From the NCBI RefSeq assembly GCF_024195295.1, contig NZ_JAMFTH010000004.1, positions 124,001 through 188,000 of the forward strand: a stretch of 64,000 nucleotides of DNA, in the 5' to 3' direction. Both the position numbers and the translations under genes were made by a program. Shown one piece after another: positions 10,394 through 12,234 of this stretch; the stretch's first letter is position 1; each line of letters opens with the position of its first letter. The notes under the pieces are model-generated. The model had not been told where the DNA came from. It worked only from the letters and a program-made list of their open reading frames with translations, and did not search any database. Origin of the DNA: Gilvimarinus xylanilyticus (lineage in GTDB: Bacteria > Pseudomonadota > Gammaproteobacteria > Pseudomonadales > Cellvibrionaceae).

Positions 10394-11032
10394 ATTTCAT
10401 TCCCTAGAGAGTGGAGTACAACAAACGGCCCCCAGGGCGGGAGCTTTCCTACAGATATAAGAATAACGATATTCACTGCAGTTTTCGACTAGCGATTACC
10501 TAAAACAACGAATACAGTCCAAACGGGATTGGAACACCAAGAAATCATTACTGACCTAGACCGCGGTGCATTGCGTTGCGCACCCAGTTTCGACACTAGG
10601 CCTACAGCAAGACCATTCTCGATATTGCCTGTAAACCGGGCATACTAAACCCGGTAAAACAGATTTTAGGGGCAGACGTTTATCTAAGATACCTCTGATT
10701 AAGCTCTAGCAGCCTATGCGCGCCCCAAATGAGCAATCTATTCCCCTTGACCCACACCTCAAGCAATGGCCATAGCCTCTGACGAGAAGAATAAGAGGGG
10801 GAATGTACCTATAGCCTCCCGGCTTGAAAGGTTTGGCGAGCAAAACGACTACAGAAACAACACCTAATTCAAGTCCGGCCTTGGTTCTTGAAATGGTCTA
10901 AATTTTCTTGTTATCACTTCCCGCATTTCACCGGAAAATCAAGGAATTAACGACGACGAAACCTAGCAGGATATCGTCAGGCAGCCGCAAAACGGACGTC
11001 AGGGTGCCTTGCGGCCCTCCTGACACACGCAG
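10394..11032 (-). other. Gene-free spacer before the repeat array
   Basis: About 640 bp without a credible reading frame. The part next to 10393 must contain the promoter of the barrel gene, but I see no strong boxes. A small inverted repeat (ACCGGG / CCCGGT) lies near 10634-10654. A 17-nt fragment of tRNA-Leu lies at 10868-10884. The rest shows no recognisable gene, RNA or mobile element. Confidence 0.6.
10868..10884 (+). repeat. Inverted 17-nt copy of the tRNA-Leu T-arm
   Basis: TTCAAGTCCGGCCTTGG on the plus strand is identical to the T-arm and acceptor part of the minus-strand tRNA-Leu at 11387-11471, in opposite orientation. A 17-base exact match within 0.6 kb is not expected by chance. 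It may be the scar of an inversion or of an element that used the tRNA 3' end; no integrase gene is nearby. Confidence 0.7.
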
Positions 11033-11070
11033 AAAAGCTGTTCGCTTGTGTGAAGAGCCTTCGTTAATGT
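11033..11070 (-). repeat. Degenerate third copy of the repeat hairpin
   Basis: The text here (AAAAGCTGTTCGCTTGTGTGAAG core) matches the terminator hairpin of the two complete units with several unpaired changes, and is followed toward lower coordinates by sequence that no longer matches. It looks like the decayed end of the tandem array. Confidence 0.6.
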
Positions 11071-11228
11071 GGTGCCCACTAATTTGCCGGGAGCAAATTA
11101 GGATAGCCCGTCGGGGCTGGTCCGAGGACCGAGGCGCAGGGAAGCGCCGAGTCAACGCTGGACCATGGTCCGGCCTGAGACACATAAAGAAAAGGCCCTA
11201 CGCTCTCGCGTAGGGCCTTCCTCTATTC
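11071..11228 (-). repeat. Tandem 158-bp structured repeat, distal unit
   Basis: Read on the minus strand the unit starts after the tRNA-like end of the proximal unit and contains: a strong hairpin with T-run (11192-11219), an imperfect GGACC/GGTCC hairpin, a CGGCGC/GCGCC hairpin, GGTCC/GGACC, AGCCC/GGGCT, TAATTTGC/GCAAATTA, and finally GTGGGCACCA, which equals the 3' end of tRNA-Leu. Compared with the proximal unit, many stem bases differ on both sides while pairing is kept. Confidence 0.85.
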
Positions 11229-11387
11229 GGTGCCCACCAATTTGTCAGGAACAAATTAGGACAGCCCGGCAAGGGCTGGCTCGAAGAGCCGGGGCGCAGG
11301 GAAGCACCCCGTCCACGCCGGACCTCGGTCCGGCCTGGCACACATAAAAAAGGCTCTTCACTTGCGTGAAGAGCCTTCCTATTTAAT
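11229..11387 (-). repeat. Tandem 159-bp structured repeat, proximal unit next to tRNA-Leu
   Basis: Hairpins in minus-strand order: GGCTCTTCAC/GTGAAGAGCC with T-run (11346-11376), GCCGGACC/GGTCCGGC (11317-11334), CGGGGTGC/GCGCCCCG (about 11290-11311), GGCTC/GAGCC (11278-11290), AGCCC/GGGCT (11263-11277) and AATTTGT/ACAAATT (11239-11257), then GTGGGCACCG, like the tRNA 3' end. The unit repeats at 11071-11228 with period 158-159 bp. No reading frame explains it. Confidence 0.85.
11346..11376 (-). terminator. Intrinsic terminator of tRNA-Leu
   Basis: A 12-bp stem (AGGCTCTTCAC/GTGAAGAGCCT) with loop near 11362-11365 is followed on the minus strand by six T (11351-11346). It lies 11 bp after the tRNA CCA end. 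The same hairpin position is repeated at 11192-11219 in the distal unit. Confidence 0.85.
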
Positions 11388-11471
11388 GGTGCCCAAGGCC
11401 GGACTTGAACCGGCACGGCTTGCGCCACTACCCCCTCAAGATAGCGTGTCTACCAATTCCACCACTTGGGC
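11387..11471 (-). tRNA. leuU: tRNA-Leu (anticodon GAG)
   Basis: On the minus strand the acceptor GCCCAAG (11471-11465) pairs with CTTGGGC near the 3' end. The anticodon stem CTATC/GGTAG encloses the loop TTGAGGG, giving anticodon GAG. A long variable arm typical of tRNA-Leu follows, then the T-arm CCGGTTCAAGTCCGG and an encoded CCA (11389-11387). It decodes CUC/CUU leucine codons. It lies downstream of secG, as in many gammaproteobacteria, so it may be cut from a secG-containing transcript by RNase P. Repeats carrying tRNA pieces lie on both sides. Confidence 0.95.
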
Positions 11472-11820
11472 AAAGGGGAGATGCATAAGCATCGAATCTT
11501 TCTTAACGTAATGTGCGAGAGTCCCGACACGCTACGCGTGGTCGCTTTCGGCGTCCTGCCTCTCGCGACACTTGTGTATCCTGCACGTCGTCTACCCTTC
11601 CACCACTTGGGCAAAGGGGAGATGCTTAAAGCATCGAATCTATTTTAACGTAATGTGCGAGAGTCCCGACTCGCTACGCGAGGTCGCTTTCGGCTCTCGC
11701 CTTACGCGACACTTGTACTTTCATTTACATCGGTCGCTCCCGGCGTCCTGCCTCCCGCAACACTTGTACATCCATGTACATCGTCTACCCCTTCTGCCGT
11801 TTAGGCGAAGGGGATGCTTA
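11472..11820 (-). repeat. Repeat array carrying 5' pieces of tRNA-Leu, between secG and tRNA-Leu
   Basis: On the minus strand the sequence GCCCAAGTGGTGGAA, the first 15 bases of tRNA-Leu, recurs at 11612-11598 followed by GGGTAGAC, and a diverged form (GCC-AAACGGCAGAAGGGGTAGAC) occurs near 11805-11783. Each copy is preceded by a GATGC/GCATC hairpin and C-rich tract, and followed by a shared block with CACGC/GCGTG (copy 1) or CTCGC/GCGAG (copy 2) hairpins. Copy spacing is 141 bp and about 193 bp; the longer one contains an internal duplication with GTAC-rich words. No reading frame of note is present. These look like decayed tRNA-Leu 5' halves in a tandem array. Confidence 0.75.
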
Positions 11821-11841
11821 CGCATCGAATTTTGTTAGATC

Positions 11842-12234
11842 TTACTCGGCAGGTACTGCGGGTACTTCACCGGCGTTATTTTCGCTGCCCATGCTGGGTA
11901 CCTCAGAAGCCTCATCATTGGCGGTGGGTACGTCGCTTTCCTGGGCGGCGCCAGCGGGGGCGGATTCTATCATGGAAGGAATTGCCGCGTCAGTCACTTG
12001 GCTGCTATTTTTTGCAATAATTGCCAAGCCAAAGCTGGTGCAAAAAAAGACGACCGCAAAAATGGAGGTGGCACGGGTGAAAAAGTTACCGCTGCCCTCG
12101 CTACCAAATACGGTTTGCGATGCACCGGCGCCAAACGACGCACCGGCGGAGGCACCTTTGCCCTGCTGCATAAGGATCAGTGCGATAATCGCCAGGGCGG
12201 TTAACACGTGTATGATTAAAACAATCTTTTCCAT
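11842..12234 (-). CDS. secG: Preprotein translocase subunit SecG
   Basis: A 130-residue inner-membrane protein with two hydrophobic helices (about 3-20 and 55-75) and the SecG core LMQQGKGASAGASFGAGASQTVFGS between them, part of the SecYEG export channel. The C-terminal 45 residues are Ala/Ser/Glu-rich and low in complexity, longer than in E. coli SecG. ATG 12234 gives the usual MEKIVLIIHV start; the frame stays open to 12297 over the tpiA end and is not used. It lies 32 bp downstream of tpiA and precedes tRNA-Leu, the usual order. Confidence 0.94.
   Translation of the reverse strand: MEKIVLIIHVLTALAIIALILMQQGKGASAGASFGAGASQTVFGSEGSGNFFTRATSIFAVVFFCTSFGLAIIAKNSSQVTDAAIPSMIESAPAGAAQESDVPTANDEASEVPSMGSENNAGEVPAVPAE

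Follow-up and report, generated by a model that had tools for sequence, protein, structure and literature searches.

Tandem units related to tRNA-linked repeats behind the tRNA-Leu(GAG) gene of Gilvimarinus xylanilyticus

In E. coli K-12, 22 tRNA-linked repeats (TLRs) have been described at ten loci (Stenum et al. 2021, PMC8144298) and are defined there, with reference to Rudd 1999, by 18–19 bp identical to the 3' end of the upstream RNA gene. RrA, RrB and RrF of E. coli are presented in the same article as the T1–T2 spacers of rrnA, rrnB and rrnD (the rrnB spacer being the rrB gene), made by read-through of the first terminator, processed, and bound by CsrA and Hfq; binding of RrB to CsrA was weaker once three GGA motifs were changed, deletion or overexpression of rrA/B/F in E. 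coli had modest effects only, and rrB was reported in at least 31 species, all Enterobacteriales (PMC8144298). RtT homologues are known in Pasteurellaceae, with Northern signals in Actinobacillus pleuropneumoniae (PMC4986893), and elements of Enterobacteria similar to rtT are assigned to the BIMEs (PMC2965389). A literature search, in which subscription journals were mostly outside reach, returned no description of such repeats outside Enterobacterales and Pasteurellaceae. REP/BIME palindromes are intergenic repeats near terminators.

The window analysed here, a stretch of 64,000 nucleotides from Gilvimarinus xylanilyticus, contains a tandem array downstream of tRNA-Leu(GAG) (11387..11471, minus strand; ARAGORN; Rfam tRNA 49.8 bits), which is preceded by secG (Pfam SecG). 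All features of the array lie on the minus strand, downstream of the tRNA gene running from 11471 to 11387, and Tandem Repeats Finder reported 11031–11380 with a period of 158 and 2.2 copies. Unit U1 (11229..11386, 158 nt) is composed of a terminator, a T-arm-like hairpin, a forward core and a copy of the tRNA 3' end. Its terminator hairpin GGCTCTTCAC/GTGAAGAGCC was placed at 11350..11379, the T-arm-like hairpin at 11317..11335 (inverted repeat I4, 16 nt, 81%; together with its 5' neighbour it resembles the inverted tRNA 3' end) and the TLR core with hairpins hpI–hpIV at 11233..11316. Unit U2 (11071..11228, 158 nt) has its terminator hairpin GGCCCTACGC/GCGTAGGGCC with a T-rich tail at 11192..11221 and its core at 11075..11156; the two cores score 94.8 bits (U1) and 90.4 bits (U2) with the covariance model R1, of which both are training sequences. 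The consensus terminator scan listed the U2 terminator on the minus strand and the U1 hairpin on the plus strand only. U1 and U2 align with a score of 143, while 500 base-shuffled controls reach 32 at best. The decayed start of a third unit (11019..11062, terminator and adjacent part) matches nt 9–53 of U1 with a score of 48 and U2 with a score of only 17 and is, by these alignments, closer to U1 than to U2; the shuffle control for this remnant, with a maximum of 28, covers the U2/tail alignment only.

The original prediction, made from the sequence alone, had described two units and a decayed third after the tRNA with about six hairpins each, and this layout was recovered with both units at 158 nt and six hairpins per unit (terminator, T-arm-like and the four of the core). 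Each unit had also been said to end with the tRNA 3' sequence; such an end is present as the run TGGGCACC(A), with 8 nt in U1 and 9 nt in U2 shared with the tRNA-Leu end TTGGGCACCA, and the run is not the GTGGGCACC that had been given. The paired stem changes GGCTC/GAGCC to GGTCC/GGACC and those in both terminator arms are present between U1 and U2.

Searches with whole units gave few copies (matches in 12 of 58 genomes, the own genome and several short partial matches included), and many more were recovered with a model of the core. In the core alignment A2 (18 copies) 20 of 25 pairs were changed on both sides, with a covariation score of 0.451; shuffles gave 0.143, and sliding the pairing gave no more than 0.129. 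Model R1, built on 18 core copies, has matches in 62 of 97 genomes (the own genome among them), with at most 47 candidates scored per genome; its E-values are rough by the model's own description, and related copies are non-independent observations. Covariation among copies from related genomes, proposed as a check on the stems, was found: among 147 R1 matches (140 distinct) from the window and 99 loci, all 25 pairs were changed on both sides, 88% of cells were paired and the covariation score was 0.525 versus 0.151, in an alignment that was fitted to R1 and is hence biased towards the structure of the model.

R1 was trained without E. coli sequence and finds the rrnB T1–T2 spacer at 54.7 bits (E 1.4e-9, default filters). 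With filters off, three rtT repeats were detected in the tyrV trailer of E. coli K-12 at 22.1, 19.6 and 19.1 bits (next best 4.4); these matches coincide with Rfam RtT matches of 134–138 bits at a spacing of 178 nt, and the three repeats were missing from the R1 matches in four E. coli stretches under default filters. At argVYZQ two weak matches were obtained (13 bits, E 0.12, default filters), and behind lysV R1 finds nothing at a place where Rfam RtT scores 47.3 bits, above its cut-off (L356:4860-4985, E. coli K-12). A blastn search with the 5S-type unit gave no E. coli match, though R1 later matched. In the opposite direction, Rfam RtT (RF00391) gives a full-length match of 41.6 bits (gathering cut-off 45) to the tRNA-Ser(GCT) unit in locus L130; over 97 genomes it passes its cut-off in 7 and gives an E 0.001 match in 18, the own genome not among them, and it has no match in the window and is absent among the matches up to E 5 in 10850–11850. 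Judged by these model matches, the core of the array is homologous to E. coli rrB and rtT, and the comparison with the tyrT operon, drawn from the layout of its repeats, is one of homology, R1 having found both the rtT repeats and rrB without E. coli training sequence. The suggestion of a new structured RNA family did not hold, the array being a relative of the known tRNA-linked repeats.

Like the E. coli TLRs, which follow tRNA or rRNA genes, the units come directly after a tRNA gene, and they are akin to those repeats in sequence and structure (rrB; rtT with filters off); their identity with the gene end is 8 nt in U1 and 9 nt in U2, and since the 18–19 bp hallmark is missed, the array is a variant of TLRs rather than a plain member. 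With RrA/RrB/RrF it shares a homologous four-hairpin core, a stable RNA gene upstream, a position between two terminators and a copy of the gene 3' end, and it differs from them in lying behind tRNA-Leu and not 5S, in being tandem, in carrying 8–9 nt and not 18–19 bp of the gene end, and in having the core flipped, with the GGA loops antisense. With rtT it has in common tandem units with the tRNA 3' end (158 nt in the window, 178 nt apart in E. coli) and a core that R1 finds in all three E. coli repeats with filters off, whereas the rtT core is reverse and, by reading, without the AT-rich hpIV, and the RtT model misses the window. Two GGA-loop hairpins, in the window on the strand opposite the tRNA, recall TwoAYGGAY RNA (RF01731) and the CsrB-RsmX clan, but RF01731 has no match in the window; RsmY, which shares one Rfam clan with TwoAYGGAY, gave a sub-threshold match on the plus strand at 11125–11217 (18.1 bits versus 57 needed, E 0.066). 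Elsewhere in the own genome, TwoAYGGAY scored 45 bits against a cut-off of 43 at L149:1280-1384 (minus strand), in the vicinity of tRNA-Ala and the copies of the core there.

In 78 of 144 family genomes the tRNA-Leu(GAG) locus was checked by extra GGGCACC copies and repeats, plus reading; some of these genomes have a tRNA end other than GGGCACC, and the extra-copy test cannot work there. Units adjoin the tRNA in 11 of the 78 (G000, G006, G011, G018, G019, G035, G059, G152, G153, G159 and G162), a partial unit lies at the tRNA in G091, displaced units were found in G031 and G004, and in many of the 78 no unit was seen by the repeat/GGGCACC test. Copy number ranges from none up to 6.8, the latter in the array of G035 (period 134), and in the relative G162 the gene-end copy is about 17 nt by reading. 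Among eight Gilvimarinus genomes, units adjoin the tRNA in two, a displaced unit is present in one (G004) and no unit was seen at tRNA-Leu(GAG) in five. In G031 a phage-type integrase island (L021:5267-10244, Phage_integrase), which ends in a partial tRNA end, lies between tRNA-Leu(GAG) and the array, and the tRNA gene looks like an integration site on account of this island. An integrase att-site remnant as the cause of the array was rejected, since the array lies beyond the G031 island and also occurs without one.

A search for the unit elsewhere in the genome had been recommended, and with the core it gave 18 R1 matches in the own genome at E 0.1, of which 16 have a tRNA gene (Leu, Phe, Asp, Ala or Ser) or a 5S gene no more than 500 nt away, 5S genes being located with a typed pattern; the other two are L146, within a tmRNA-like 3' end fragment by reading, and L154, which is unlinked. 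For a genome-wide scan, a pattern of the most constant hairpin and the T-loop sequence was used. At least 118 stretches were found, mostly in Gammaproteobacteria (e.g. Dyella, Rhodanobacter, Rheinheimera, Bowmanella and Shewanella); among the pattern places listed, 86 of 127 had a tRNA or tmRNA gene no more than 350 nt away and 41 had none that close, a pattern that begins with the T-loop sequence favouring such places. At many of these loci the core lies, by reading, inside the T-loop of a partial tRNA copy, in the order GGTTCGA, core, AATCC to CCA. The core is often preceded by an inverted copy of the tRNA end: such a copy (local score at least 12) was found at 30 of 100 tRNAs with a core and 5 of 219 without, and direct copies of the tRNA end at 54 of 100 and 45 of 219. 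Behind Dyella tRNA-Ser(GCT) (L241, L268, L290) the terminator palindrome is extended by the tRNA 3' end copied in inverse orientation; in L241 the palindrome measures 68 nt including the loop. Tandem core copies also occur 5' of tRNA-Ser (L125, L126, L218), in L125 with each unit beginning, by reading, with the tRNA 5' end. In G149, four cores share one strand over no more than 50 kb (L127, L207, L208, L209), L127 with a tmRNA-like 3' end by reading, and these may be stacked islands at the tmRNA gene.

The paired changes between the units had been taken to indicate selection on RNA structure. A stem selected as RNA tolerates G-U on the RNA strand and not A-C; hairpins were grown outward from the loop with G-U and A-C treated alike, and cores were read on the GGA strand. 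In a first count (139 distinct R1 matches and 124 distinct pattern loci, with overlapping windows and possible double counts, and with minimum lengths slightly unequal between cores and terminators) the cores had 18 G-U, 23 A-C and 43 other mismatches among 3,759 cells, and 105 terminators behind 324 tRNA genes, used as control, had 53, 1 and 7 among 1,251 (Fisher p 5.7e-10, which treats non-independent cells as independent). At fixed positions in 195 tRNAs, G-U and A-C numbered 25 and 2 among 1,365 cells of acceptor stems and 40 and 3 among 975 cells of T stems, together 65 and 5 of 2,340. The version to rely on is a recount by one rule and without overlaps, in which cells are likewise not independent: at a net length of at least 4, the cores had 22 G-U, 16 A-C and 52 other of 4,699 cells, and hairpins in the first 70 nt after the 324 tRNA genes had 103, 13 and 85 of 4,152; at a net length of at least 6, G-U and A-C were 13 and 8 of 2,779 in cores and 86 and 5 of 2,932 in controls. 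The recount shifted the G-U:A-C ratio of the cores from 18:23 to 22:16, and the contrast with the control persisted. When R1 matches were divided by context, 69 forward-copy hairpins had 1 G-U and 4 A-C on the GGA strand, 103 hairpins of reverse copies 3' of a gene, which have their GGA loops on the gene strand, had 0 and 7, and the remainder had 11 and 8; over all aligned columns the counts were 95 and 66, much of this from shifted hpII columns. The covariation of the cores is real, carries little or no RNA mark and fits palindromes maintained at the DNA level, and the slight excess of G-U over A-C in the recount leaves room for a weak RNA component. RNA selection as the meaning of the paired changes was thus left unsupported, the two-sided changes lacking the clear G-U excess of tRNA-trailer hairpins and tRNA stems.

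Orientation of the cores was recorded relative to the neighbouring gene, with tandem copies counted singly, Leu including Cys-Leu operons, and a few Ala copies doubled (L149 and L150 overlap). Within 700 nt 3' of the gene, cores are forward on the gene strand at Leu (21 of 21) and Gly (6 of 6) and reverse at Asp (13/13), Ser (13/13), Ala (7/7) and tmRNA (6/6); in addition, one reverse core each was found at Gln, Met and Val, three reverse and one forward at Arg, and two reverse and three forward at Phe. Forward copies have their GGA loops on the antisense strand, kept in 28/28 (hpIV) and 27/28 (hpI) distinct copies, and reverse copies on the sense strand, kept in 41/45 and 37/45, a comparison softened by R1 itself favouring GGA loops. 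The window core is forward on the tRNA strand and so does not present GGA loops on the transcribed strand in the manner of RrB; because the loops are on the other strand, CsrA binding is an unlikely role for a sense transcript at tRNA-Leu.

With a probability of roughly 0.6, the locus is read as an array of TLR-like units whose core pairing is kept at the DNA level and which serves mainly repeated termination behind tRNA-Leu(GAG). Each unit would consist of a partially copied tRNA 3' end and a terminator, with an old and widespread palindromic TLR core built in; units would be gained and lost when the repeated tRNA ends and terminators recombine unequally, and short read-through RNAs would be by-products of the repeated termination. 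The putative DNA-level cause that would keep the core hairpins perfect, in place of selection on a transcript, may be templated correction from arm to arm, a process known from imperfect palindromes, or recognition of the DNA hairpin by a protein. Both would fit this evidence equally. Against the DNA-level reading stand the conservation of the GGA loops, for which palindrome correction is not enough by itself, although the search model favours GGA, and the published member RrB, a processed and CsrA-binding RNA (PMC8144298); the 8–9 nt of gene end, short of the 18–19 bp of E. coli TLRs, also count against the preferred reading as a whole. In an alternative reading, read-through of the tRNA-Leu terminators would yield processed sRNAs like rtT and RrB, with hairpins selected as RNA. 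This is rather unlikely: the homologous RrA/B/F are described as transcribed, processed and bound by CsrA and Hfq (PMC8144298), RtT homologues gave Northern signals in Actinobacillus pleuropneumoniae (PMC4986893), and folding energies of −88.8 and −79.6 kcal/mol (raw, without a shuffle control) were computed for the unit stretches, but the cores show no clear wobble excess, the core at Leu(GAG) is flipped with its GGA loops antisense, many family genomes have no unit at this tRNA by the repeat test, and the reported effects of rrA/B/F deletion or overexpression in E. coli are modest (PMC8144298). Very improbable is an antisense CsrA sponge, in which the plus strand would be transcribed and present the GGA loops; it would account for their conservation on the antisense strand of forward copies, for the terminator-like site of the U1 hairpin on the plus strand and for the sub-threshold RsmY match at 11125–11217, yet a simple consensus scan of 10850–11900 found no sigma-70-like promoter on either strand, and G-U 1 versus A-C 4 on the GGA strand of the 69 forward-copy hairpins speaks against it.

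A mobile palindromic element of REP/RAYT type, inserting at RNA gene ends and still spreading, would explain the same core at many different RNA genes in both orientations and the cores lying, by reading, inside duplicated T-loops, and the assignment of rtT-like elements of Enterobacteria to the BIMEs would agree with it (PMC2965389). Its likeness to the array lies in palindromic intergenic repeats near terminators, some BIMEs being similar to rtT (PMC2965389); TLR cores differ in their greater length, in their link to the ends of RNA genes and in occurring in genomes that have no RAYT match. RAYT-type transposase (PF01797) matches were obtained in 68 of 97 genomes, the window's own genome having two such matches, and eight genomes with at least ten cores (G011, G013, G029, G031, G063, G091, G149, G160) had no PF01797 match; a cognate RAYT in repeat-carrying genomes was thus not found throughout, RAYT transposases do not track with the cores, and RAYT as the mobilising enzyme is unsupported. 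When each of 103 labelled copies was assigned its nearest relative outside the own genome-and-gene group, this was of the same gene kind in another genome in 57, of another gene kind in another genome in 38 and in the same genome in 8, counts that have no null and use coarse gene kinds (all Ser pooled, all Leu pooled). By these counts the core copies look mainly to descend in place, and their spread looks old. BLAST gave no plasmid match for the window array or for the tRNA-Asp unit and no phage match for the core of the latter, and the short hairpin pattern was found in 12 viral contigs. Taken together, ongoing mobility is considered unlikely. The preferred reading, DNA-level pairing in TLR-like units, can be widened tentatively, and with more doubt than belief, to TLR cores at large as a gammaproteobacteria-wide DNA-level palindromic module in copies of stable-RNA 3' ends, its pairing held perfect by a DNA process, and rarely adopted as RNA (RrB, rtT).

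By the homology shown here, one family unites rtT, the sRNA genes of the rrnB T1–T2 type and unannotated repeats behind many tRNA genes, and it extends well beyond Enterobacterales. The cores illustrate that covariation, even if strong, does not have to reflect a selected RNA, and comparing G-U with A-C counts, with nearby tRNA trailers as the control, is a cheap and transferable test. The CsrA role that has been proposed for TLRs has a natural control in the flipped Leu copies. The rrnB T1–T2 spacer is used in many cloning vectors and, if the wider DNA-level reading of TLR cores is true, would be one copy of the TLR module.

Two further features were seen next to the array. Upstream of tRNA-Leu, at 11472–11842 on the minus strand, there is a second kind of repeat in two to three copies, with copies of the tRNA 5' half and GGA-loop hairpins (e.g. 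ACATGGATGT and GGCAGGACGCC), and its arrangement is alike in ten related genomes, some of which were recognised through the repeat test alone. A run of 17 nt at 10868–10884, some 135 nt past the remnant of the third unit, is identical to the inverted tRNA-Leu 3' region (I2, 100%).
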